A stretch of DNA of 64,000 nt from Acetivibrio cellulolyticus CD2 (GTDB lineage Bacteria; Bacillota; Clostridia; Acetivibrionales; Acetivibrionaceae), in the NCBI RefSeq assembly GCF_000179595.2, contig NZ_JH556659.1:1282731-1346730 (forward strand). The letters are read 5' to 3'. Of this stretch, positions 51,398 through 64,000 are shown in pieces. Both the position numbers and the translations under genes were made by a program. The notes beneath the pieces are model-generated. The model ran no database searches. It was not told the origin of the DNA and was given only the letters and a program-made list of their open reading frames with translations. Positions within the stretch are counted from its first letter, which is position 1. Each line of letters starts with the position of its first letter.

Positions 51398-51418
51398 TAG
51401 CTATAACAAAATATAGTT

Positions 51419-51660
51419 AAAACATAGGTGACCAAAAACATTTGGTTGAAAAGGGAAGCAGGTGAGATTCCTGTGCGGTCCCGCCGCTGTAATGAGGAGT
51501 TGTTTCATTGATACCACTGGTTGAGCAACATTAACTGGGAAGGGATGAAACACCGATGATTCTAAGTCAGAAGACCTGCCTTTGTACCACGCCTTTAACT
51601 CTACGGATGATAGGGGGTGTATGGATTCGATTTTCAAATTGGCCTTAATCAAGGCTTTTC
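51419..51660 (+). ncRNA. cobalamin riboswitch controlling nrdD-nrdG
   Basis: The leader has the conserved cobalamin-aptamer strings GGGAAGCAGGTGAGATTCCT, CCGCCGCTGTAATG and the B12 box AAGTCAGAAGACCTGCC (51564-51580). A terminator hairpin GCCTT-AATC-AAGGC followed by TTTT lies at 51642-51659, so the likely mode is premature termination when cobalamin is plentiful. It is 140 bp before nrdD. Confidence 0.93.
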
Positions 51661-51800
51661 AAGTTTTCATATCTTATTATCTATTTTGGGGATAAAAGCG
51701 TATTTTTGTGAAACCAGTATCATTTAGTACACTTGATTTCATTGTGTTTAATATAAATTGTCCCAGCTACACCAGAAAAATAAAAATAGGAGATGTTCTA

Positions 51801-53891
51801 ATGATTAAAACAATTATTAAAAGGAACGGAAGAGAAGAAAAATTTCAGCCGGAGAAAATTACATGGGCAATTTTCAAGGCTGCATCAGCATGTGGAGGAG
51901 ACGATTTTACTAAAGCGGAAGGCATTTGCAGGCAGGTTATGGATTTGGCTGAGCTTACATATAAAGATACGACACCAACAGTAGAAGAAATACAGGATAC
52001 TGTTGAGAAGGTTTTAATAGAAAACGGTCATGCTAAAACAGCGAAGGCTTTTATATTATACAGGGAAAAGAGAAAAAGTGCCAGGGATCTTAATGCTCTT
52101 GTAGGAGCAACAATAGATATGTTTTCGGACTATCTTGGAGACAGGGATTGGAATATAAAAGAGAATGCCAATACCCAGAAAAGTGTCAATGGCCTTAATA
52201 ACTATGTAAGAGAGACCTTTACCAAAAAGTACTGGCTGCATGAGATATACCCTTCTGAAGTCCGGGAAGCACACGAAAATGGTGACTGCCATATTCATGA
52301 TCTGGGCTTTTTCGGTCCGTATTGTGCCGGGTGGGACTTAAGACAGCTTTTACTTGATGGATTCGGCGGGGTTGAAGGAAAAGTAGAGAGCAAACCGGCC
52401 AAGCATCTAAGGTCGTTTTTAGGCCAAATCGTAAACTCGACTTTCACTACACAGGGTGAAACAGCCGGGGCTCAAGCATGGTCCAGCATTGATACGTATT
52501 GTGCGCCATTTATACGTTATGATAATATGACCTATGATCAGGTAAGACAGTGCCTTCAAGAATTTATATTTAATATAAATGTTCCTACAAGAGTAGGGTT
52601 TCAGTGTCCTTTTTCCAATTTGACCTTTGATATAACTGTGCCATCCACACTCAAAGATGAACCGGTTATAATTGGAGGAAGTTACATGGATGAAAGTTAC
52701 AAGGATTTTCAGAAGGAAATGGACATTTTCAACAGGGCATTTTGTGATGTAATGTTAGAGGGAGATTCAAAGGGCAGAGTATTTACTTTCCCGATTCCTA
52801 CTATTAATATCACAAAAAGTTTTGACTGGAACAATCCTGTAGTTGATGAATTTATGAAAATAACTTGCAAATACGGCATTCCTTACTTTGCAAATTATGT
52901 AAATTCGGATCTTTCTCCGGAAGATGCTGTTTCAATGTGCTGCCGTCTGAGACTTGATACGACTGAACTGAGGAAAAGGGGCGGAGGTTTGTTTGGAAGT
53001 AATCCGCTTACAGGTTCGGTAGGAGTCTTTACAATAAACCTTGCTAGAATCGGATACCTTTCAAAGTCAGAAAGTGAGTTTAAAGCAAGGCTATGGAAGA
53101 TTGCAAATATAGGAAAGACATCTTTGGAGATTAAAAGAAAAATTATAGAACAGCAATCGGAAAAAGGCTTGTACCCTTATTCCACGCATTATTTAAGACA
53201 TGTTAAGCAAAGAACAGATGAATTTTGGTACAACCATTTCAATACAATCGGTATTATTGGGATGAATGAAGCACTGTTGAATTTTATGAATAAGGATATA
53301 ACTACAAAAGAAGGTCAGGCGTTTTCAATTGAAATAATGAATTACCTTAGAGAAGTACTTGTAGATTTCCAAAATGAGACCGGGCATTTTTACAATCTCG
53401 AAGCTACTCCGGCAGAAGGTACTTCTTACAGACTTGCTCAACTTGACAAAAAGAAGTATCCAAACATTATCACAGCCGGAAAAGATACGCCATACTATAC
53501 AAATTCGACGCAGCTTCCGGTTGAATATACTGATGACATATTTGAAGCATTAGAACTCCAGGATGAACTCCAATCGCTCTATACAGGCGGAACAGTCCAG
53601 CATTTGTATCTTGGCGAAAGCATAGAGGATATTGAAGTTTGCAAAAAGCTTATTCAAAAGGTATTTGTAAATTATAAAATGCCATATATATCTATAACAC
53701 CAACATTCAGTATATGCGCAGACCATGGTTATATAAAAGGTGAGCATTATACCTGCCCTGAATGTGGAGCAAATACGGAAGTATGGTCAAGGGTAACAGG
53801 ATATTTAAGGCCTGTAGCTAACTTTAACATCGGAAAGAAAGAAGAATATACAGGTAGAAAGAAATTTGTATTGGCGGAGAAGATATCATGA
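51801..53891 (+). CDS. nrdD: anaerobic (class III) ribonucleotide reductase
   Basis: 696 residues. An N-terminal ATP-cone (IIKRNGREEKFQPEKITWAI) is followed by the glycyl-radical reductase domain. At the C-terminus lie a zinc-type motif (YTCPECGANTE) and the glycyl radical region SRVTGYLRPVANFNIGKK. It makes deoxyribonucleotides under anoxia and needs NrdG, whose start overlaps its stop. Preceded by a cobalamin riboswitch, so it is probably turned off when a B12-dependent class II enzyme can work. AGGAGAT fixes ATG 51801; the frame is open to 51708. Confidence 0.95.
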   Translation: MIKTIIKRNGREEKFQPEKITWAIFKAASACGGDDFTKAEGICRQVMDLAELTYKDTTPTVEEIQDTVEKVLIENGHAKTAKAFILYREKRKSARDLNALVGATIDMFSDYLGDRDWNIKENANTQKSVNGLNNYVRETFTKKYWLHEIYPSEVREAHENGDCHIHDLGFFGPYCAGWDLRQLLLDGFGGVEGKVESKPAKHLRSFLGQIVNSTFTTQGETAGAQAWSSIDTYCAPFIRYDNMTYDQVRQCLQEFIFNINVPTRVGFQCPFSNLTFDITVPSTLKDEPVIIGGSYMDESYKDFQKEMDIFNRAFCDVMLEGDSKGRVFTFPIPTINITKSFDWNNPVVDEFMKITCKYGIPYFANYVNSDLSPEDAVSMCCRLRLDTTELRKRGGGLFGSNPLTGSVGVFTINLARIGYLSKSESEFKARLWKIANIGKTSLEIKRKIIEQQSEKGLYPYSTHYLRHVKQRTDEFWYNHFNTIGIIGMNEALLNFMNKDITTKEGQAFSIEIMNYLREVLVDFQNETGHFYNLEATPAEGTSYRLAQLDKKKYPNIITAGKDTPYYTNSTQLPVEYTDDIFEALELQDELQSLYTGGTVQHLYLGESIEDIEVCKKLIQKVFVNYKMPYISITPTFSICADHGYIKGEHYTCPECGANTEVWSRVTGYLRPVANFNIGKKEEYTGRKKFVLAEKIS

Positions 53892-54637: not shown

Positions 54638-54651
54638 CGAACAAATGTTTG
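54638..54651. promoter_or_regulatory. LexA/SOS box upstream of the integrase gene
   Basis: CGAACAAATGTTTG fits the Gram-positive LexA (DinR) operator CGAAC-N4-GTTYG. It lies 27 bp before the integrase ATG, next to a TTGTTC / TATTAT promoter candidate (54605-54635), so SOS control is likely. Confidence 0.7.
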
Positions 54652-54677: not shown

Positions 54678-55733
54678 ATGTTTGTGCATGTAAAGAAGTA
54701 TTCAGAAGGTTTTTTGTCTGTTAAGTTTCCATATTCAGTGGAGAATGTTGAAAAAATTAGAAAAGTTGATGGACGGAAGTGGATTGAATCTGATAAAATA
54801 TGGGTAATTCCAGATAATGAGGATAGGATAAAATTATTATACAGGTTATTTGGTAAGGATAATGTCTTTTTCGAAAATTATGAGTACGACAAAGATACAA
54901 TGATAGCATTGAAAAATGAGTTGAAAATTAGAAACTATAGTGTAAAAACACAAAAGGCTTATTTAGGGCATGTAAGAAGATTACTACAGTTTCATAAGAA
55001 ATGTATAGATAATATAGATAAAGATGATATAAAATTGTATCTATTGAGATTAGTTGATGCAAATAAATCAGCGGCTTATATTGACCAAGCTGTAAGTGCA
55101 TTCAAATTTTTGTATATCGATTTAAAAAATATTGATGACGTTGATTTTGATATCAAACGACCAAAAAGAGAACAAAAGTTACCTAGTGTATTGAATACAA
55201 ATGAAGTATTTAAGATTATTGAATCAGTTGATAATTTAAAGCACAGGGCAATTATTATGCTAATTTATTCAGCGGGATTAAGAGTGAGCGAGGCTGCTAA
55301 CTTGAGGATTGAAGATATCGACAGTAAAAGAAATTTGATTCATATTAAGGGTGCAAAAGGTAAAAAGGACAGATATACTCTTTTATCAAATGCGATGTTG
55401 GAATTATTAAGACAATACTTTAAGATATATAGACCAGAGTGTTGGTTGTTTGAAGGACAAAACGGAGAAAAACATATAACGGTTAGGAGTATACAGAAGG
55501 TTTTTGAAAAAGCAGCATTTAAAGCAGGTGTAAAGAAGAAAGTGTCAGTTCACACTTTAAGACATTCTTTTGCAACTCATTTACTTGAGAATGGAACTGA
55601 TTTGAGATATATACAGGAATTGCTTGGTCATGCAAGTCCATCAACGACGGAAATATATACACATGTTAGCGAAAGAGATTTTGCTAAAATTCAAAGTCCA
55701 TTAGACCGGATTATGAACAAAGTTAAGTTATAG
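54678..55733 (+). CDS. integron-type tyrosine recombinase of unusual form
   Basis: 351 residues. The catalytic set is complete: Arg202 (YSAGLRVSEAANL), Lys in KGAKGKKDR, His292 and Arg295 (VHTLRHSFATHLL), His318 (LLGHAS) and Tyr327 (IYTHV). The end SPLDRI resembles IntI proteins. The roughly 20-residue extra segment that IntI carries before the HxxR box is absent. Residues 1-65 form an unusual N-terminal extension (KWIESDKIWVIPDNED), and the core-binding domain spans about 70-160. It is followed directly by an attC cassette array on the same strand, and a LexA box lies upstream, so it most likely inserts and excises the cassettes. A plain XerC/D role is the alternative. Confidence 0.85.
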   Translation: MFVHVKKYSEGFLSVKFPYSVENVEKIRKVDGRKWIESDKIWVIPDNEDRIKLLYRLFGKDNVFFENYEYDKDTMIALKNELKIRNYSVKTQKAYLGHVRRLLQFHKKCIDNIDKDDIKLYLLRLVDANKSAAYIDQAVSAFKFLYIDLKNIDDVDFDIKRPKREQKLPSVLNTNEVFKIIESVDNLKHRAIIMLIYSAGLRVSEAANLRIEDIDSKRNLIHIKGAKGKKDRYTLLSNAMLELLRQYFKIYRPECWLFEGQNGEKHITVRSIQKVFEKAAFKAGVKKKVSVHTLRHSFATHLLENGTDLRYIQELLGHASPSTTEIYTHVSERDFAKIQSPLDRIMNKVKL

Positions 55734-55813
55734 TTACATATACGAAAAAATTTTCGCTAATGCAAGGGGAAATTTTGCATAGACGTAATTGATACGGATA
55801 TGGAACGTTATAC
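55734..55813 (+). other. candidate attI site
   Basis: The stretch between the integrase stop and the first cassette ends in GAACGTTATAC, where cassette 1 begins at G^TTATAC (55807/55808). It lacks the R''/L'' partner boxes of an attC site, as expected of attI. It holds hairpins CGAAAA-AA-TTTTCG and TGCAA...TTGCA. Confidence 0.6.
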
Positions 55814-55893
55814 AAAACCACACGAAAAGGACGCGCATCCATGCGCTAAATTTTTGAGAAGTTCTTTGTAGATTTCATTCAGGAGGATGTGGC

Positions 55894-56388
55894 ATGGAAG
55901 AATACTATAAGTTTGTATTTATTTTAGACAGTAAAGAATACTATTGCATTTGGTTCTCAGGTGAAAAAGATGGTTTTGTAACTGATGGGGATAAGTTAAA
56001 ATGCTTTTATGATTTTGACCAACTTCAGACTTTTGCATTAGATAATAATATAGAAGTTTTTGACGAAGGATCAGAATTATCTATAAATCTTGCCCAAAAG
56101 TGGGATGATCAAAAAGGGGAAAACGTTGACTGTAAATATTTTTTGCATTATTGGAATATGATGTCTGATTTATCATATTCGGTGAAAGAAAGCTTTTATG
56201 GAGATAACAAAAATAGTACGTTAAACAAATTATATGATAAACTATTTTGGGGTAGTAATCTTCCAGCAGTTACTCCCGAAGGAAAGGAATATATTCCAAT
56301 ATGGTCAAAAAAAGAGCTCGATGAACTAAATAAAGTTGTTAAAGATGGGTTGCGTTTAATTAATTCATATTTAGAGATTAAAGTATAG
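55894..56388 (+). CDS. cassette 1 protein, unknown
   Basis: 164 residues, acidic, no signal peptide or membrane helix, rich in aromatic residues (EEYYKFVFILDSKEYYCIWF). No family recognised; small acidic proteins of this kind can be immunity-type or stress proteins, but nothing here shows it. AGGAGG lies 7 nt before ATG. The cassette runs from 55808 to 56577 and is duplicated next door with about eight changed residues. Confidence 0.75.
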   Translation: MEEYYKFVFILDSKEYYCIWFSGEKDGFVTDGDKLKCFYDFDQLQTFALDNNIEVFDEGSELSINLAQKWDDQKGENVDCKYFLHYWNMMSDLSYSVKESFYGDNKNSTLNKLYDKLFWGSNLPAVTPEGKEYIPIWSKKELDELNKVVKDGLRLINSYLEIKV

Positions 56389-56450
56389 TCGTAACAACTT
56401 TAGGGAATGACATCCGTGTCATTCTCCGGCTTCGCGGGTCGTGTGGCTTC

Positions 56451-56583
56451 GTATAACAAGTCCATTTGAGTAAAGGGCATGCTTACGGGTCATCCTGCCC
56501 ACATCGATTCATCGGGCTTACGCCGCTCACGGGTATTCCTTACGGGTCCGATTCATCGACGTCTCAAATGGCGAACGTTATAC
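56451..56583 (+). repeat. attC1
   Basis: R'' GTATAAC (56451), L'' CCATTTGAG, L' CTCAAATGG (56563), R' GTTATAC (56577). Both box pairs are perfect complements. The tip GGC-TTAC-GCC is a small hairpin. R'' also pairs with the head of its own cassette (TTATAC at 55808). Tail hairpin at 56406-56423 (TCCG loop); head hairpin of cassette 2 at 56603-56616 (TCCA loop). Confidence 0.9.
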
Positions 56584-56663
56584 AAAACCACACGAAAAGG
56601 ACGCGCATCCATGCGCTAAATTTTTGAGAAGTTCTTTGTAGATTTCATTCGGGAGGATGTGGC

Positions 56664-57158
56664 ATGGAAGAATACTATAAGTTTGTATTTATTTTAGACA
56701 GTAAAGAATACTATTGCATTTGGTATTCAGGTGAAAAAGATGGTTTTGTAACTGATGGGGATAAGTTAAAATGTTTTTATGATTTTGACCAACTTCAGAC
56801 TTTTGCATTAGATAAAAATATAGAAGTTTTTGATGAAGGATCAGAGTTATCTATAAATCTTGCCCAAAAGTGGAATGATCGAAAAGGGGAAAAAGTTGAC
56901 TGTAAATATTTTTTGCATTATTGGAATATGATGTCTGATTTATCATATTCGGTGAAAGAAAGCTTTTATGGAGATAGCAAAAATAGTACGTTAAACAAAT
57001 TATATGATAAACTATTTTGGGGTAGTAATCTTCCAGCAGTCACTCCCGAAGGAAAGGAATATATTCCAATATGGTCAAAAAAGGAGCTCGATGAACTAAA
57101 TAAAGTTGTTAAAGATGGGTTACGATTAATTAATTCATATTTAGAGATTAAAGTATAG
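56664..57158 (+). CDS. cassette 2 protein, near-identical copy of cassette 1 protein
   Basis: 164 residues differing from the cassette 1 product at about eight positions (for example WYSG for WFSG, NDRKGEKV for DDQKGENV). The same ribosome site and start are used. Non-coding flanks and attC are nearly identical too, so the whole 770-bp cassette was duplicated, most simply by re-insertion of an excised copy. Function unknown. Confidence 0.75.
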   Translation: MEEYYKFVFILDSKEYYCIWYSGEKDGFVTDGDKLKCFYDFDQLQTFALDKNIEVFDEGSELSINLAQKWNDRKGEKVDCKYFLHYWNMMSDLSYSVKESFYGDSKNSTLNKLYDKLFWGSNLPAVTPEGKEYIPIWSKKELDELNKVVKDGLRLINSYLEIKV

Positions 57159-57220
57159 TCGTAACAACTTTAGGGAATGACATCCTTGTCATTCTCTGGT
57201 TTCGCGGGTCGTGTGGCTTC

Positions 57221-57354
57221 GTATAACAAGTCCATTTGAGTAAAGGGCATGCTTACGGGTCATCCTGCCCACATCGATTCATCGGGCTAAAGCCGCTCAC
57301 GGGTATTCCTTACGGGTCCGATTCATCGACGTCTCAAATGGCGAGACGATCTCC
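57221..57354 (+). repeat. attC2, with a GAT instead of GTT core at R'
   Basis: R'' GTATAAC (57221), L'' CCATTTGAG, L' CTCAAATGG (57333), R' GATCTCC (57348). The tip hairpin is GGC-TAAA-GCC. R'' matches the head of cassette 2 (TTATAC), while R' carries the head of cassette 3. Tail hairpin 57176-57193; head hairpin of cassette 3 at 57371-57388. Confidence 0.85.
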
Positions 57355-57439
57355 GACATATCCTGATTTTTTCGCCATCCATGGCGAATGTTTTTAGGGA
57401 AAGGCTTCGGAGATGAACAAACTTTAGGAGTTGGTGTAC

Positions 57440-57832
57440 TTGAAAAAAGAAATAACAGCAATTTACATATGTTGGGTTTTTGTATCTGTGCTATTTTTAA
57501 CTTATTTAGTTGTTAAGTTTTATCCTACTTACAAAGATAATGAGATTCCGTTATCTACAGATATTACAATGATTGTTTTTTTACCTGCATACTTTTCAAT
57601 GCTATGGTTGGTAGTACACTTAAAAAGCTTTTTTATAAGAAAGCAGAGGATTGATGTGATAATAAGTATTATAATATTATTAGTTGCTTTTATATATTCT
57701 ATATTAATAATGGATTTTAGTTTTATAACAAATGTTTTTATTTCATTTATTGGACTTACAATAGGATTTATACATTATTTTATAACGGAAGTTTTATTTA
57801 GGAAAAGTGTTTTAAATACACGTTTAGCCTAA
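57440..57832 (+). CDS. cassette 3 membrane protein
   Basis: 130 residues with four hydrophobic helices (near YICWVFVSVLFLTYLVV, MIVFLPAYFSMLWLVVHL, IISIIILLVAFIYSILIM and VFISFIGLTIGFIHYF). TTG 57440 lies 9 nt after AGGAG, better than earlier in-frame TTG/GTG codons. No family recognised. The cassette spans 57349-58078. Confidence 0.65.
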   Translation: MKKEITAIYICWVFVSVLFLTYLVVKFYPTYKDNEIPLSTDITMIVFLPAYFSMLWLVVHLKSFFIRKQRIDVIISIIILLVAFIYSILIMDFSFITNVFISFIGLTIGFIHYFITEVLFRKSVLNTRLA

Positions 57833-57914
57833 AAGGTTAATAAGAAGTTATCTTAGGGGTTTTATGAGGAATTTCCGTCCGTGGAAATTTCTGAATTACG
57901 GGTCAGGATACATC

Positions 57915-58084
57915 GGAGATCAATGCATCTCAGTAAAGGCTGCGATAGTAAGAGCAAGAAGTATTCCTCTGCAGTAAATTCATGTAGTAAGGCTCCGCCT
58001 CATCCTCTCATGGGCGCAGTTGCGCGCTGACGCGGGACATCCTTACGGGACCATTCGAGGACGACTGAGATGCCGACGATATAT
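57915..58084 (+). repeat. attC3, with a GAT core at R'
   Basis: R'' GGAGATC (57915) is the exact complement of its cassette head GATCTCC. L'' GCATCTCAGT pairs with L' ACTGAGATGC. R' is GATATAT (58078). Tip hairpin GCGC-AGTT-GCGC. Tail hairpin 57870-57889; head hairpin of cassette 4 at 58101-58118. Confidence 0.85.
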
Positions 58085-58205
58085 GGAATTCCCTGCATTG
58101 CCGCCCCATCCGGGGGCGGGTTTTTAGGGAATTGCTTTGAAGATATAAAAATGTATTTGAATCTGAGCTATAATAGTTGGTTAGCAACCGACAGTGATTA
58201 TTTCT

Positions 58206-58442
58206 ATGATAGTAGAAATCGATGGTTATTATAATAGTTCGATTGTATATGGTAGAAAGTGTACAAAAAAGGCTTTAAAAGAAATGTATTTAAAAGCATT
58301 AAGCTTAACTGTAGATATTAGAGATTTACCAGGGATTTTTTGCAGGCTATATAACTTTGAGGAATTTCCATATACTTCGGAAATATTTGTAGATTATGTT
58401 ATTGATACTGATACAAATTTAATATATAAACCAAGATACTGA
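58206..58442 (+). CDS. cassette 4 protein, unknown
   Basis: 78 residues from ATG 58206 (GTG 58194 is an alternative); neither has a clear ribosome site. Soluble, mixed composition (MIVEIDGYYNSSIVYGRKCT), ends in DTNLIYKPRY. No family recognised. The cassette spans 58079-58736. A further open frame at 58502-58702 is attC sequence, not a gene. Confidence 0.5.
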   Translation: MIVEIDGYYNSSIVYGRKCTKKALKEMYLKALSLTVDIRDLPGIFCRLYNFEEFPYTSEIFVDYVIDTDTNLIYKPRY

Positions 58443-58571
58443 ATTTGTATAAGAAGATTATTATTTTTTGCTTACTGATTTAAGGAAGAGTTGCTACAAA
58501 TTTGTTGAAAAAAGTTTTTGTAAGGCTCGGACATCCGTGTCCTCGTCTGGCTTCGCGGGGCAGGGAACTCC

Positions 58572-58742
58572 ACATATCAAAGCGTATTCGCAAGGGTGCG
58601 GTAGAGAGAGGACATGAAGCAGGGCTCTGTAAGTCATCCCATGTAGTATGCCGCACCGCAGCTCTTCACCGGCACAAGTGCACCAAGGAAGAAGGGCTTT
58701 GAGGGTCCGGTTCAGAGCCGCCGCATACGCCAGACGTTATCG
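58572..58742 (+). repeat. attC4
   Basis: R'' ACATATC (58572) pairs with the head of its cassette, GATATAT, with one mismatch. L'' GCGTAT pairs with L' ATACGC. R' GTTATCG (58736). Tail hairpin 58529-58542 with TCCG loop. Confidence 0.82.
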
Positions 58743-58810
58743 GAAATGCGGTGCTTTTTCACCTGTATCAAGGTAGCTGCAAAATGAAAAGGAAATGAGG
58801 CGTTCTAAGG

Positions 58811-59233
58811 ATGAGTGAAAGAAAGGAAATGATAAAATATTTAAAAGATGAAGTTGTTCCAGTTTTACGAAATAAGGGATTTAAGGGAACATTTCCACAT
58901 TTCAGAAGGCCGACAGAAACGCATATTGATTTGATGACTTTTCAATTCGATAAATGGGGCGGCGGCTTTGTTATTGAACTTGCAGTTTGCCCGTTAACAG
59001 GAGTTACTTTATACTGGGGAAAGCAGATAGCTCCATCAAAAGTTACAGCACATGATGTAAATAAAAGATATAGATTAGGTTCAAGCAACTTGAATTCTGA
59101 CTATTGGTTTCGGTATGATGAGGGTGTTTTGTTTGGAAATAAATTCTTGAAAGTCACAAAAAGTGTTATTGATAAGCTAGAATTGGCAGAGCAGTGGTTT
59201 AATGAGTTAAGTTCAGAGATAAATTTTCAATAA
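58811..59233 (+). CDS. cassette 5 protein, DUF4304-like
   Basis: 140 residues resembling DUF4304 proteins: an N-terminal helix with LRNKGFKGTFPHFRR, then a beta-rich domain with HIDLMTFQFDKWGGGFVIEL and a closing amphipathic helix. Proteins of this family are often found beside toxin or immunity genes and in cassettes; the function is not known. ATG 58811 follows a weak TAAGGA site. The cassette spans 58737-59454. Confidence 0.7.
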   Translation: MSERKEMIKYLKDEVVPVLRNKGFKGTFPHFRRPTETHIDLMTFQFDKWGGGFVIELAVCPLTGVTLYWGKQIAPSKVTAHDVNKRYRLGSSNLNSDYWFRYDEGVLFGNKFLKVTKSVIDKLELAEQWFNELSSEINFQ

Positions 59234-59295
59234 CACCAGTAAAAATAGAATGAGGGCAGTTTTTTTCGGGTATGCCTCTGGGGGCACCGCACATC

Positions 59296-59460
59296 CGATA
59301 ACAAGTCCATTTGCGTAAAGGGCAAAGCATGGAGAATGTTCGATGAAGTAGGAGCATGAGGTCATCCTGCCCTCATCGAAGAATCGGGTGCAAGCACCGC
59401 CTACGAAGAAGGGCTCTGTAAGTCCGATTCTTCGACGACGCAAATGGCGAGACGTTCTAC
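59296..59460 (+). repeat. attC5
   Basis: R'' CGATAAC (59296) matches its cassette head GTTATCG exactly (8 bp counting CCGATAAC / GTTATCGG). L'' CCATTTGCG / L' CGCAAATGG perfect. R' GTTCTAC (59454). A distal arm CGAAGAATCGG / CCGATTCTTCG and a tip GGTG-CAA-GCACC complete the fold. Head hairpin of cassette 6 at 59476-59493. Confidence 0.92.
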
Positions 59461-59603
59461 GACATGGGAGGAAGACGGCACATCCATGTGCCGATTTTGA
59501 AAGCAAGGCTTTGGAGATTTTGCTAATTCACTTATGTTATATTATCAACTTAAGATTAAAACTGTGAAGTTAGAAAATTTATATACTATGAGGATTGAAA
59601 GTA

Positions 59604-60182
59604 ATGAAAAAATTGATTAGTTTAGCTTTAATTGTTGTAATTATGCTGACGTTTACAGCGTGTAAAAGTGCGGAAAATCATACTTCACCTATACCAGCTA
59701 AAATTTATTACGATTATCTAATTTCTTTAGGAGAGATTGAAACGGAAAGGTCTCCAACTACTGGTGGTGGTCTTGAACGATGGAATGTGCATAAATTATA
59801 CTATTATGTAGATGATTTTAACGATGATGGAATTATTGATTTAGCTATTTCAAACGAAAAAAGCGACAGTAACGGTATTGAAATTTATACATATAAGAAC
59901 GGACAGGTTAAAAAGTTGTTTTCAAAGGGTATGCCTTATAGTGCCGGCACTGAAATATTTACTCTTGCAAAATATGATGATACATATGGAATAAAATATC
60001 TTAGGCTTAATTCATTAGGGGATTTTTCTTTTTTTCGTATTAGTAAAGACGCAACTATTGAAGAAATGTTTAGTGGTGGCCTTTATGATATTGATGGTAA
60101 TGTACTGGATACATCTACTTCATATGATAAGATTGACCCAATAACTTTTTATAGCATTGGAGAATTAAAGAAAATGTTTTAG
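59604..60182 (+). CDS. cassette 6 lipoprotein
   Basis: 192 residues. A lipoprotein signal peptide (MKKLISLALIVVIMLTFTAC) ends in a lipobox, so the mature protein should be anchored outside the membrane. A calcium-loop-like stretch DDFNDDGIIDLAI is similar to FG-GAP/EF-hand repeats. ATG 59604 has GAGGA about 9 nt upstream; the frame is open to 59595. Function unknown. Exported cassette products are unusual enough to note. The cassette spans 59455-60495. Confidence 0.75.
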   Translation: MKKLISLALIVVIMLTFTACKSAENHTSPIPAKIYYDYLISLGEIETERSPTTGGGLERWNVHKLYYYVDDFNDDGIIDLAISNEKSDSNGIEIYTYKNGQVKKLFSKGMPYSAGTEIFTLAKYDDTYGIKYLRLNSLGDFSFFRISKDATIEEMFSGGLYDIDGNVLDTSTSYDKIDPITFYSIGELKKMF

Positions 60183-60328
60183 ATGGTAATAATCAGCGAA
60201 TAAAATTAAGTATTTTAGGTACCAAGATTGAGGTATAATCTTTATATAAAGTGAAGTAAGTGGATAAGGATACTTTGCTAGAGGCCGCATCATCCGTGAT
60301 GCTCTTGCTTCGCGGGTCCTCCCACGAC

Positions 60329-60501
60329 GTAGAACAATCCATCTAGCGCAAGGGGCACGGAGGGAAAGTTCATGTAGAAGGGCTACGCGGGATTATCATG
60401 GAGAATGCGTGCCCACAGCTCTTCGCGGATGCAGTCGCATGCTAACGCGGGACATCCCTCTGTAGACCGCTCAGAGCCGTCGCAGATGGGCGACGTTATC
60501 G
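60329..60501 (+). repeat. attC6
   Basis: R'' GTAGAAC (60329) matches its cassette head GTTCTAC exactly. L'' CCATCT / L' AGATGG. R' GTTATCG (60495). Tip ATGC-AGTC-GCAT. Tail hairpin 60287-60302 (TCCG loop); head hairpin of cassette 7 at 60518-60536. Confidence 0.9.
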
Positions 60502-60591
60502 GAAAGATGAGGCAAGGCCGCATCGTCCTGATGCGGATTTGCTAGGGAATGACTTTGAAGTTTTTTGAGTATCTACTTAGGGAGGAATTAG

Positions 60592-61245
60592 ATGTTAAAA
60601 GCTGTTATTTTTGATATGGATGGTGTTATAGTAGATAGTGAACCTATTCATTTTGAGGTTGATAAAAGAGTACTGAAAAAATGCGATTTTATTGCTAACG
60701 ATGATATTTTAAATCCATATGTTGGAGTTTCAAATCCAGAAATGTGGAAGGATTTAAAAGAGAAATATAACTTAATTCTGAGTGTGGAAGAATTATTGAA
60801 ATTGCAGTCTGAATTAAAAATTGAAGTATTGAATGAAACAAAAATAGAAGCAATAGATGGAATTAAAGAATTATTAAATGAACTAAAGCAGAATAAAATT
60901 ATTACAGCAGTGGCATCTTCTTCACCAAGATTTTTTATTGAAGCCATATTAGAAACGATAAGAATAAGAGAATATTTTAAAGTAATATTAAGTGGTGAAG
61001 AAGTTCAAAGAGGAAAACCATACCCAGATGTTTTTTTAAGAACTGCGGAAATGTTAAGAGTTAATCCACAAGAATGCGTAGTCATTGAGGATTCTAAAAA
61101 CGGTGTGAAAGCTGCTTTGTCTGCAGGAATGAAATGTATTGGATTTGCTAATTTGAATTCTGGCTCACAGGATTTATCAAGTGCATCAACAATAGTTGAT
61201 AGTATTTGTAAGATAAATTATAATTTTGTGATAAGTATCATGTAG
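60592..61245 (+). CDS. cassette 7 HAD-family phosphatase, beta-phosphoglucomutase-like
   Basis: 217 residues. HAD motif I FDMDGVIVDSEP (nucleophile Asp near residue 9), motif II region VASSSPRFF, motif III Lys in QRGKPYPDVF, and motif IV VIEDSKNGVKAA. The cap is of the beta-phosphoglucomutase type. It probably dephosphorylates or isomerises a sugar phosphate; the substrate cannot be told. GGGAGGA lies 6 nt before ATG 60592. It is the only clear metabolic enzyme in the array. The cassette spans 60496-61470. Confidence 0.9.
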   Translation: MLKAVIFDMDGVIVDSEPIHFEVDKRVLKKCDFIANDDILNPYVGVSNPEMWKDLKEKYNLILSVEELLKLQSELKIEVLNETKIEAIDGIKELLNELKQNKIITAVASSSPRFFIEAILETIRIREYFKVILSGEEVQRGKPYPDVFLRTAEMLRVNPQECVVIEDSKNGVKAALSAGMKCIGFANLNSGSQDLSSASTIVDSICKINYNFVISIM

Positions 61246-61303
61246 GTTAATATATAGGAAGCGACATCGTGTCGCTTTCTGGTCTCTGGGGGCCTCATCC
61301 ATC

Positions 61304-61476
61304 CGATAACAATGCATGGCAGTAAAGGTGCGGGATAGAAGGTCATGGAGTAAATTCTCTGGAGAAGGAGCATGAAGCATGCCGCACCACATTCCATCGT
61401 CGGGTGACAAGCACCGCCTTCGAAGAAAAGCTCTGCGGGTCCGACTCTGGAACGTCTTCCATGCGAGACGTTAGCT
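61304..61476 (+). repeat. attC7
   Basis: R'' CGATAAC (61304) matches its cassette head GTTATCG exactly. L'' GCATGG / L' CCATGC. R' GTTAGCT (61470). Distal arm CATTCCATCGTCGG / CCGACTCTGGAACG. Tail hairpin 61261-61275 (GCGACA-TCG-TGTCGC). Confidence 0.9.
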
Positions 61477-61534
61477 GCAATCGGACGCAGATCGAGCCTC
61501 AATGAACAGATTAAAATATTTTTTAAGGGGTTAT

Positions 61535-61969
61535 ATGAATATTAAGTTTATTAGAAAAGTTATTAAAAGCATATTTGTTTTAATTGGTATTTTAACTGTA
61601 TTATATTTTACTATATATTTTTTGGGGAATTTAATAATGCACGATGAGGATAGAATAGTGAAGGAAGTTGTCGCACCTAATAAAGTAGAAAAAGCAGTAG
61701 CATTTCTTAGAAGAGGTTATGATACAACGACGTTGAATGTCTCTATTTTAAATAAAGACAAGAAAACTTCTGATGATAACTATGGACCCTTCGGTAACAC
61801 GTTTTCTATTTTTGTTCTTGAATCAGAAAATTATGACCTTGATTATTTTGATCTCGAATGGGTCAGTGATAAAAAACTTAGGATACAGTATAAAGAATCA
61901 GAAGAATACAATTTAAATATAAAGGTTACACATAGGTACGAAAATGATATTGAGTATATTGTTAAGTAA
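61535..61969 (+). CDS. cassette 8 single-pass membrane protein
   Basis: 144 residues from ATG 61535, which follows AAGGGG by 4 nt; ATG 61502 would add 11 residues. One N-terminal membrane helix (SIFVLIGILTVLYFTIYFLG) is followed by a soluble domain (AFLRRGYDTTTLNVSIL) that weakly recalls DUF5412 proteins. Topology suggests the soluble domain is outside. Function unknown. The cassette spans 61471-62204. Confidence 0.65.
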   Translation: MNIKFIRKVIKSIFVLIGILTVLYFTIYFLGNLIMHDEDRIVKEVVAPNKVEKAVAFLRRGYDTTTLNVSILNKDKKTSDDNYGPFGNTFSIFVLESENYDLDYFDLEWVSDKKLRIQYKESEEYNLNIKVTHRYENDIEYIVK

Positions 61970-62038
61970 TGATATTTAGTAGAATTGTTTAAGGGGCACA
62001 TATTCTATGTGCCTCTGAGTCACGGGACGTCCGACTCC

Positions 62039-62210
62039 AGCTAACAAAAGATTCACACAAGGGCTCGAAAGAAGAGCATGTAGCAGTCCTCTGTAGCATG
62101 AACATGAAGAAGGACTCGCCACATTCCTTCACCGGGCGGTCAAGCCGCCGCCAAAGAAGAAGGGCTCTGCGGGTCCGGTTCAGGAACGTCGTGAATCAAA
62201 AACGTTGTAC
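62039..62210 (+). repeat. attC8
   Basis: R'' AGCTAAC (62039) matches its cassette head GTTAGCT exactly. L'' GATTCAC / L' GTGAATC. R' GTTGTAC (62204). Tip GGCGG-TCAA-CCGCC type. Tail hairpin 61995-62013 (GGCACATA-TTC-TATGTGCC); head hairpin of cassette 9 at 62226-62243. Confidence 0.9.
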
Positions 62211-62299
62211 GAAATCAGACGATTACCGTGCATCCATGCACGGATTTTTAGGGATTGACTTTGGAGCATTACGATAAAGGATTTGTAAGAGGTGAACTT

Positions 62300-62776
62300 A
62301 TGACTAGAGTATCTGATGATGAAGTGTTTGAATATGATATATTATGGTTTGCAGTTGATTCTCAAAACGAAATTGCTCAATTTGATTCAGGCGTATATGG
62401 GCTTTTACCAGAGAGCGTGCGTGGTTCATTAGAGGACTTGGAGAGTATAGCTTGTTTTATTTTAGAGAAGTTAGATGATACATCACAAACAAAAGTAAGT
62501 GAAAATGTGTTTGATAGAGTTATTTTGAAGGATTCAAGAGAAGTTACAAAAAAATCTTACTTTAAACATTCACTTGAATTTTCTCGGAAAGGCTTGTATT
62601 CCTATGAATCATATGATTCTAAACCAACTTCATACCAGTATTTTAGAGTCAGTATGCCCGATAATCCACTAAAACTAAGTGACTTACCTGAAAAATATAA
62701 ATGTATTCTTGAGAAGTACAGGCTTGAAGAATGTGTTTTTAGTGAAATGGAGTTAATAACTATTAAGGAAAAATAA
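62300..62776 (+). CDS. cassette 9 protein, unknown
   Basis: 158 residues from ATG 62300, chosen for AGAGGTG just upstream; an in-frame TTG at 62255 would use part of the conserved cassette-head box as coding sequence. Acidic, soluble, no signal peptide; includes FDSGVYGLLPESVRGSLEDL. No family recognised. The cassette spans 62205-63120. Confidence 0.65.
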   Translation: MTRVSDDEVFEYDILWFAVDSQNEIAQFDSGVYGLLPESVRGSLEDLESIACFILEKLDDTSQTKVSENVFDRVILKDSREVTKKSYFKHSLEFSRKGLYSYESYDSKPTSYQYFRVSMPDNPLKLSDLPEKYKCILEKYRLEECVFSEMELITIKEK

Positions 62777-62961
62777 TTTACTGTTTTTAGTAAGAGATTT
62801 TTTCCATTTGTAGATGGAGAAATTAAATATACATATTAAATTTATATCGTGCTGTTTCGGGAGTTAATAGAACAGCCTGAATTAGAGAATGTAGTTTTGT
62901 TGAAGGAGATTTAAGGAGGTCACATCCGTGTGCCCTTCTGAGACTAGGGTCGTCTGACTTC

Positions 62962-63126
62962 GCACAACAAGTCCATTTGCGTAAAGGGCAAAGCATGTAG
63001 AAAATTCTCTGGAGCAGGAGCATGAAGTCATCCTGCCCTCATCGAGTCATCGGGTGCAAGCACCGCCTACGCAGAAGGGCTTTGTAAGTCCGATTCCTCG
63101 ACGAAGCAAATGGCGAGACGTTAGGT
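62962..63126 (+). repeat. attC9
   Basis: R'' GCACAAC (62962) pairs with its cassette head GTTGTAC with one mismatch. L'' CCATTTGC / L' GCAAATGG. R' GTTAGGT (63120). Tip GGTG-CAA-GCACC as in attC5. Tail hairpin 62918-62935 (TCCG loop). Confidence 0.9.
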
Positions 63127-63646
63127 GAAATCCACTGCGATTTGCAACTACTGTGAGGTTTAAGCTTTATTGTTTAAGCATGTACCTGATGATGGAAAGA
63201 TTTTTTTGATTTTATTAGAGGTCAGGCTAGGGTATCATCTTAAAGTTTGATGAGATTGATTTTGACATACTTGAAAGTTATTGAGATTATAAGAGATTCT
63301 ACATAATTAAGCATTGATGATGATTATTATTTATTATATTACTTAGGGCATTTTGAAAAACATAGCTCACATTAGGTTTAGAACAGGTTAAAGGATTTAT
63401 GATTTATTTATTTTTGTGGAATATTGTAGCACTGTGCTAAAGATATAAGTAAGGTAAAGGATAAAGGATTTAAAGAGTTTTAGTATTTGTGGTTTACTGA
63501 ATGTGAAAGCTTGAGGATATAAATTAGAGACATAAGGTCGTTAGAGTAAGTTTGTTTTTGTGGCTATTGGAAGGTAATTTGTGTATAATTAAGAAATAGA
63601 GTAATTAAGGTTTGTTAGGGAAAGGCTCCGCGGGGCAGTGGACTCC
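63121..63646 (+). other. cassette 10 body without a recognisable gene
   Basis: About 525 bp of AT-rich sequence between the cassette head (TTAGGTG) and its attC. No frame of useful length with a ribosome site was found on either strand; ATG 63180 stops after nine codons. It lacks both flanking hairpins. It may be a decayed gene or carry a small RNA or promoter. Confidence 0.5.
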
Positions 63647-63819
63647 ACCTAACAATCCATGACCGTAAAAGTGCGGGTAAGAAAATTCAAGAAGTAAGCC
63701 TCTGTAGACCGAGCATGAAGTGTGCCGCACTACATTCCATCGTCGGGTGACAAGCACCGCCTACGAAGAAAATCTCTGCGGGTCCGACTCTGGAACGTCG
63801 GTCATGGGAGACGGTGCGA
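63647..63819 (+). repeat. attC10, R' core interrupted after the G
   Basis: R'' ACCTAAC (63647) matches its cassette head GTTAGGT exactly. L'' CCATGACCG / L' CGGTCATGG perfect. Distal arm as in attC7. The spacer GAGAC and the G at 63813 are present, but GTGCGAC follows in place of TTRRRY. Confidence 0.85.
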
Positions 63820-64000
63820 CACGAGGTCGCACAGATAAATGTTTAGCTACATTAAGTAGTATAAACCTGTTATTCCGTTAACAGTAATCTGACAACGGTG
63901 CGTAGGTGGTAACACCTTGGGTTCTAAGCTGTTGCGACAATGCAACCCTTTCTCGAAAGAGAAGAACTGGAATCCGTGAGGAATCTGGAATTCTGCTAGC
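63814..64000 (+). mobile_element. possible group II intron 5' end, or head of cassette 11
   Basis: The sequence starts GTGCGACACGAGGTCGCAC, agreeing with the group II intron 5' consensus GTGYG and forming a stem. The following 170 bp are GC-richer and hairpin-rich without coding frames (GGTGCGTAGGTGGTAACACC, TTCTCGAAAGAGAA), as in intron domain I. It begins exactly at the attC10 crossover. The window ends before any reverse transcriptase or 3' end. If not an intron, it is cassette 11 with a GGT core. Confidence 0.5.

Follow-up and report, generated by a model that had tools for sequence, protein, structure and literature searches.

Integrons are gene-capture devices known for spreading antibiotic resistance. 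To characterize an integron-like element in a clostridium, we analyzed a 64,000-nucleotide (nt) stretch of Acetivibrio cellulolyticus CD2 (hereafter, the window), which corresponds to positions 1282731-1346730 of the 1,349,091-base contig NZ_JH556659.1 in a draft genome of 6.16 Mb. Our analysis identified an integron-like cassette array and an adjoining recombinase that is related to XerA and to the integron integrases (IntI), lacks the I2 insertion of the latter, carries a predicted N-terminal domain resembling HARP and the damage-recognition domain (DRD) of XPB, and likely inserts and excises cassettes as folded bottom-strand hairpins, a reading to which we assign a probability of roughly 0.7. 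By its likely working principle, we class the system as an integron variant outside the IntI family; its sequence features suggest an SOS-inducible integron branch that would recombine folded bottom strands without I2. The recombinase gene (54678-55733, plus strand) is followed by a 74-nt spacer, ten cassettes (55808-63813), and a group II intron. As the initial annotation of this DNA had claimed, the cassettes lie head to tail and each is closed by an attC-like site (56451-63813). To the right of the window, two further complete cassettes and a third that the contig end truncates lie after the intron, which is associated with an assembly gap. That annotation had also considered the integron complete-looking. 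A recombinase, an attI position, and mixed cassettes are indeed present, but I2 is missing, the bulge of the attC L helix is almost absent, and there is an extra terminal box. For lack of I2 and the L-helix bulge, canonical integron was rejected as a full label.

The two ends of a cassette match each other. In the window, the cassette start is complementary to the cassette's own R'' box at six of six positions in eight of the ten cassettes and at five of six in the other two, and the own-end match seen across 46 cassettes of six arrays was attained in 0 of 10,000 permutations. R'' fully matches the bases that follow it in only one of ten cases, the duplicated pair of cassettes 1 and 2 (cassette 10 is followed by the intron). 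Both patterns had been noticed in the initial annotation and both hold, as does the circle logic that it drew from them; its proposal of insertion at G^TT must be relaxed to a GWT core, since 36 of the 46 cassettes start with TT and 10 with AT. At least five of the six R positions pair with the cassette's own start in 41 of the 46. Beyond R, we identified an extra 7-nt box (positions 11-17), designated O, that also pairs a cassette's own two ends: it is perfect in 31 of these 41 cassettes, compared with 1.8% when ends are swapped, and 30 distinct O sequences occur among the 41. Position 10 is never Watson-Crick paired (0/41); in 37 of 41, A stands against G, which gives the top strand an A.C mismatch and the bottom strand a T.G wobble. 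In the window array, each of the 12 complete cassettes has O pairing at 7/7 positions and the position-10 wobble. Among 51 cassettes outside the set from which this rule was derived (other arrays, six genomes), R pairs in 39 and does not in 12; of those 39, 23 have a perfect O and 38 have A/G at position 10. In a Vibrio sp. control (11 rows, one of them mispaired), pairing reaches approximately position 10 and O matches in none.

The terminal stems also differ between strands. In 28 distinct well-matched terminal stems, wobbles confined to the bottom strand outnumber those confined to the top strand 42:3, or 14:3 without position 10, and the ratio in held-out cassettes is 20:8 with position 10 excluded; inside the O box it is 3:3. 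When folded as DNA in the circle form, the bottom strand is the more stable one in 37 of 41 cassettes, and in the array form there is no strand preference (23/41). Taken together, the wobble bias and the circle-form folding suggest that, in the excised circle, it is the folded bottom strand on which selection acts.

For the attC-like sites, 48 sequences (79-167 bp) were collected from five genomes, including two loci in Pseudobacteroides cellulosolvens (G040) and a second host locus. Since gapless-stem scanners returned many chance hits (shuffled means of 0.7-17 per locus), sites with R'', AA, an L stem, and a CG-type end were picked by eye, and a covariance model was relied on afterwards. The model was built from 46 of these same sites, with those at 2919 and 17739 of locus L025 left out. 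RNAalifold predicted an L stem and an inner stem in this alignment, and for each of the 16 predicted pairs, one or more of the 46 sites differ at both partners. When the model was run, a check that the initial annotation had proposed, the host genome yielded 45 matches at E<=0.1, the weakest at 1.6e-5 (contigs C3, C7, C8, C9, and C10), and cassettes continue past the window. One of these contigs, C10 (loci L159/L160), is 32 kb long and has attC sites in both orientations, probably representing more of the same or another array.

According to an excerpt of PMC7790495, the extrahelical bases of canonical attC sites are docked by the I2 helix of IntI. We allowed one bulge on the '' side of each site and counted it if the L helix gained at least two pairs. 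By this test, an extrahelical L-helix base is found in 1 of 48 clostridial sites, whose selection favoured gapless, bulge-free stems, versus 12 of 12 sites in the canonical control, which consists of one Vibrio sp. array only. The bulge is likewise found in 1 of 69 held-out sites. To arrive at these, two of 82 matches were omitted because they were cut at a stretch end, and 11 of the remaining 80 because their ends were unclear. In three loci (L150, L163, and L166; G017 c5, G040c c2, and G007b c7), cassette bodies are 82-97% alike up to approximately R'' and the attC interiors differ, as though by exchange of the attC loop.

The recombinase (351 amino acids) comprises a predicted HARP-like domain (approximately residues 1-66), a SAM-like domain, and an XerA-type catalytic domain without I2, and ends in an SPLD-type C-terminus. 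Residues R202, K227, H292, R295, H318, and Y327 are invariant in 66 aligned sequences. Its score against the XerA-type family NF040815 (238.4 bits) is above the cut-off of 220, and its scores are below the cut-offs for XerC (198.7 vs. 335.15 bits), XerD (193.3 vs. 329.6 bits), and the integron integrase family TIGR02249 (218.3 vs. 265 bits), the last match being split into two stretches. Alignment with an IntIA-like protein and IntI1 showed that the block including I2 is absent from the recombinase. Furthermore, all 32 TIGR02249 matches in the host genome end before or begin after this block; two true IntIs score 523 and 509 bits without a break, and seven relatives score 202-233. No match above the IntI cut-off was obtained in 58 genomes of the order, a search that detected no control either at 1e-40, and for this reason the absence of IntI rests on the domain break in the host genome and on the true-IntI scores. 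A phage or plasmid element was rejected, as the recombinase had no match among phage records at 1e-50 and no plasmid DNA match was obtained. One plasmid relative, at 41% identity, is present in Chryseobacterium (L155 4968-6011) and is followed by small genes in one orientation.

The N-terminal domain is predicted to be of the HARP/XPB DRD type. The HARP profile (PF07443) matches 10 of 16 such domains at E<=1 (best 3.4e-4), and the domain has conserved Y, G, W, W, and P positions and a predicted ββαββα fold that weakly matches XPB DRD, UvsW, and the HARP structure 4o66, the last ranked only 30th by VIA and 15th by Foldseek. When a 47-row tree was rooted with three Xer-like host proteins, IntI and the recombinase group lay together opposite the root, on separate and well-supported sides: 16 rows of IntI, and 28 rows with the recombinase group and two relatives associated with insertion sequences (IS). 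It should be noted that the IntI sampling of this tree is narrow and that long branches were flagged. In an excerpt of Smyshlyaev et al. (PMC8138268), the insertion is called "not fully conserved" in an integron-like subgroup, for which that excerpt describes no arrays. An IS-like pair at L020 9176-10500 combines an XerA-type recombinase without the HARP-like domain with an apparent transposase open reading frame (ORF), which is interrupted by attC-bearing DNA.

The array starts 3' of the recombinase gene. The attI region (55734-55807, plus strand; crossover after 55807) contains an imperfect inverted repeat, TACGAA-N6-TTCGCTA (55741-55759), and a cassette-start motif occurs at the matching place in homologues. 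When G[TA]TA..[TC]GA[AC]A was sought within 300 bp 3' of the recombinase, the strict motif was present in 13 of 13 distant relatives initially considered and in 2 of 8 added later; among these eight, four more have relaxed motifs by eye, one is on a contig that ends too early, and one has no motif. In the seven closest relatives it is strict in two, and variant starts were recognized by eye in the others. On the 5' side it was found in 0 of 20 genes. Upstream of the recombinase, a pattern search identified a Gram-positive LexA-type SOS box (CGAACAAATGTTTG; 54638-54651, plus strand, 40 nt before the start). Such a box precedes five of the seven close genes; none of the 13 distant genes has one. 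Among seven other copies in the host, three precede genes for a Y-family polymerase (28 nt), uvrA (52 nt), and ssb (42 nt); genome-wide, the motif is not enriched over a reversed control.

Based on these features, the following model can be proposed. In the closest relatives, DNA damage would turn the recombinase on through LexA. The circular cassette would then extrude its bottom strand, on which the O, R, and L helices may stack as one long hairpin, given that the top-strand A.C mismatch is a G.T pair on the bottom strand. The HARP-like domain could aid recognition of this branched hairpin, replacing the contact of I2 with the bulge, after which one strand would be exchanged with attI and the product resolved by replication. 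An alternative explanation is that ordinary double-stranded circles are moved by a Xer/dif-like reaction, with O and R serving as double-stranded recombinase arms and the attC hairpin being incidental. The XerA-type score and the lack of I2 would fit such a reaction, as would the near-perfect 16-nt palindromes (e.g., TACGACATATGTCGTA) that 6 of 20 relatives carry in their attI regions. We nevertheless consider it unlikely: attC-stem pairs far from the crossover covary over the 46 sites, the position-10 mismatch wobbles on the bottom strand only (37/41 and 38/39 cassettes), and a double-stranded arm needs neither L nor inner stems.

We also analyzed how recombinase and sites are distributed. 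The site model matches 19 of the 58 genomes of the order, and these include 7 of the 8 recombinase carriers versus 12 of the 50 others (Fisher p 0.001, with genomes that are non-independent). Twelve of the 19 site-bearing genomes (e.g., G017 and G044) have arrays without a close recombinase, as would be expected if a canonical IntI, encoded on a plasmid or since lost, acted in trans and the adjoining recombinase were unrelated to the arrays. This appears improbable taking into account the co-occurrence just described, the cassette-start motif after most recombinases examined, the sites without an L-helix bulge, and the IntI scores presented above. At the phylum level, the site model matches 13 of 398 genomes, host included (strict filters, seven candidates scored per genome), and the recombinase is found at E<=1e-75 in 22 of 398. 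Sites at E<=0.01 lie beside 4 of 12 phylum-level recombinase loci, and one of these, G400, has four cassettes in which O pairing and the position-10 rule were recognized by eye. These loci place the system beyond the order. In addition, 7847 proteins match the recombinase at E<=1e-40 among 8000 candidates scored, not all of them necessarily at arrays.

A comparison of 98 cassette bodies revealed four pairs common to different genomes over more than half their length. The cassette shared by Acetivibrio alkalicellulosi (G005) and Herbivorax sp. (G007) is 95.8% identical over 878 bp, and the alignment begins 2 nt ahead of one crossover and ends 2 nt past the following one. The sequences on either side are dissimilar (55% over 60 nt); the two species belong to one genus by code, and their recombinases are 72% identical. 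The initial annotation had pointed to related genomes as the place to look for cassette exchange, and this whole cassette, bounded at crossovers, would fit such an exchange. The host and A. alkalicellulosi, which have different genus codes, share a body with 91.7% identity over 662 bp, and the similarity extends 52 nt into the preceding attC. Within the host array, the ORF-less cassettes 10 (63121-63813) and 11 (L019 11931-12615) are 97% identical, align crossover to crossover, and are separated by the intron and the assembly gap. These near-copies, together with cassettes 1 and 2 and the group II introns inside arrays of two species, could suggest a static array whose repeats spread by duplication, homologous recombination, or intron events and whose complementarity is a relic, but this is very improbable because own-end pairing with so many distinct O boxes would be difficult to maintain unless selection acted on whole cassettes and because the cassette common to two species stops at the crossovers.

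All cassettes of the window are on the plus strand. Cassette 1 (55808-56577; attC 56451-56577) encodes a 164 amino acid protein with no family match (ORF 55894-56388), and cassette 2 (56578-57348; ORF 56664-57158; attC 57221-57348) is a 97% near copy of it. Proteins with no family match are also encoded by cassette 3 (57349-58078; ORF 57431-57832, 133 amino acids; attC 57915-58078), cassette 4 (58079-58736; ORF 58194-58442, 82 amino acids; attC 58572-58736), cassette 8 (61471-62204; ORF 61502-61969, 155 amino acids; attC 62039-62204), and cassette 9 (62205-63120; ORF 62255-62776, 173 amino acids; attC 62962-63120). Nine products were analyzed, namely the recombinase and eight proteins encoded by cassettes. 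Two of the latter reached a Pfam cut-off: a DUF4304 protein in cassette 5 (58737-59454; ORF 58811-59233; attC 59296-59454), for which bottom-strand folding has a z of -4.17 relative to shuffles, and a HAD hydrolase in cassette 7 (60496-61470; ORF 60592-61245; attC 61304-61470). The product of cassette 6 (59455-60495; ORF 59595-60182; attC 60329-60495) has weak lipoprotein and FG-GAP matches under the cut-offs, and cassette 10 (attC 63647-63813) has no convincing ORF. A reading of the cassettes as known defence genes was rejected, as PADLOC gave no match for eight proteins. Short hairpins with an ATCC-type loop lie near the start and near the end of several cassettes (55832-55846, 56409-56420, 58103-58117, 62227-62242, and others) and are followed by TTTTTAGGG..GGAG-like or CTTCGCGGG motifs; they may correspond to an insulator or a 5' untranslated region element, and no Rfam family reached its gathering score there. 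Elsewhere in the window (51409-53891), a cobalamin riboswitch is located directly 5' of an apparent anaerobic (class III) ribonucleotide reductase gene.

The group II intron (63814-64000, plus strand; Rfam RF02012 at 63866-64000) continues past the window edge. Its 5' end lies exactly at the crossover (ACG/GTGCGAC), and its 3' junction (CTACCCGAC/TTAGGTG) is past the window; its target suggests a C-type intron. In a second species, a group II intron (L025 5897-8261) likewise separates ACG exactly from TT of R' and runs in the same direction as the cassettes.

On a wider scale, it is conceivable, although we would rate it at slightly less than even odds, that Bacillota harbor a second, phylum-wide integron kingdom using folded single-stranded hairpins without I2, in which a HARP-type domain and the O box replace I2 and the extrahelical base. 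That only 4 genomes are common to the 22 recombinase-bearing and 13 site-bearing genomes of the phylum weighs against the term phylum-wide. The I2 helix is regarded as the acquisition that gave integron integrases single-strand recombination (excerpt of PMC7790495); if I2-less integrons span the phylum, cassette capture from hairpins would have arisen or been maintained in the absence of the domain credited with its origin. Any integron detector that depends on finding the IntI domain would then miss a whole group, and a sizeable store of mobile genes, so far unseen, could come to light in Gram-positive bacteria. A natural cassette system without I2 and its partner base would also make the origin of integrons directly testable. 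In IntegronFinder 2.0 (excerpt of PMC9024848), Firmicutes account for a single complete integron (Limnochorda pilosa) and a few integrase-less arrays. Among the open-licence papers listed by our literature searches, no title or abstract opening described a system such as this one.

Finally, we compared the system with known ones. The recombinase differs from XerC and XerD in its scores and from XerA, XerC, and XerD in its position at a cassette array. Its N-terminal domain shares the predicted fold and the conserved Y/G/W/W/P positions with HARP of SMARCAL1, XPB DRD, and the UvsW N-terminal domain, but sequence similarity is weak and the domain is fused to a recombinase, not a helicase. The intron resembles group IIC-attC introns in its location at a cassette recombination site. 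Those introns are described as inserting in the bottom strand at R'' (TTGT/T) and in opposite orientation, with one same-orientation IIC case cited (excerpt of PMC7923331), whereas here the Rfam match is on the plus strand, in cassette orientation, and the junction is at the crossover, exactly between G and TT of R'. Compared with integrons (class 1 and sedentary chromosomal; TIGR02249), the system has in common a tyrosine recombinase with an SPLD-type C-terminus, an attI, a one-orientation array, attC sites of the R''-L''...L'-R' type, self-complementary cassette ends, and, in close relatives, predicted SOS control of the recombinase. It differs in lacking the I2 insertion, which excerpts of the literature call defining for IntI (as I2/patch III; PMC9668308) and necessary for cassette capture (PMC7790495), describe as separating IntI from other recombinases (PMC9024848), and, as a profile, used to find IntI in an archaeal survey (PMC9668308). 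It differs further in its HARP-like domain, its almost complete lack of an L-helix bulge, its extra O box, its GWT core, and its Gram-positive LexA-type motif; the LexA sites before integrases in an excerpt of PMC3108266 were all Escherichia coli-like, in a study that also searched the Firmicutes motif. In addition, transcription of the recombinase gene runs in the direction of the array, leaving attI at the 3' end of the gene, in contrast to the divergent Vibrio control; a reverse integrase orientation is known for spirochaete IntIs (excerpt of PMC9668308).

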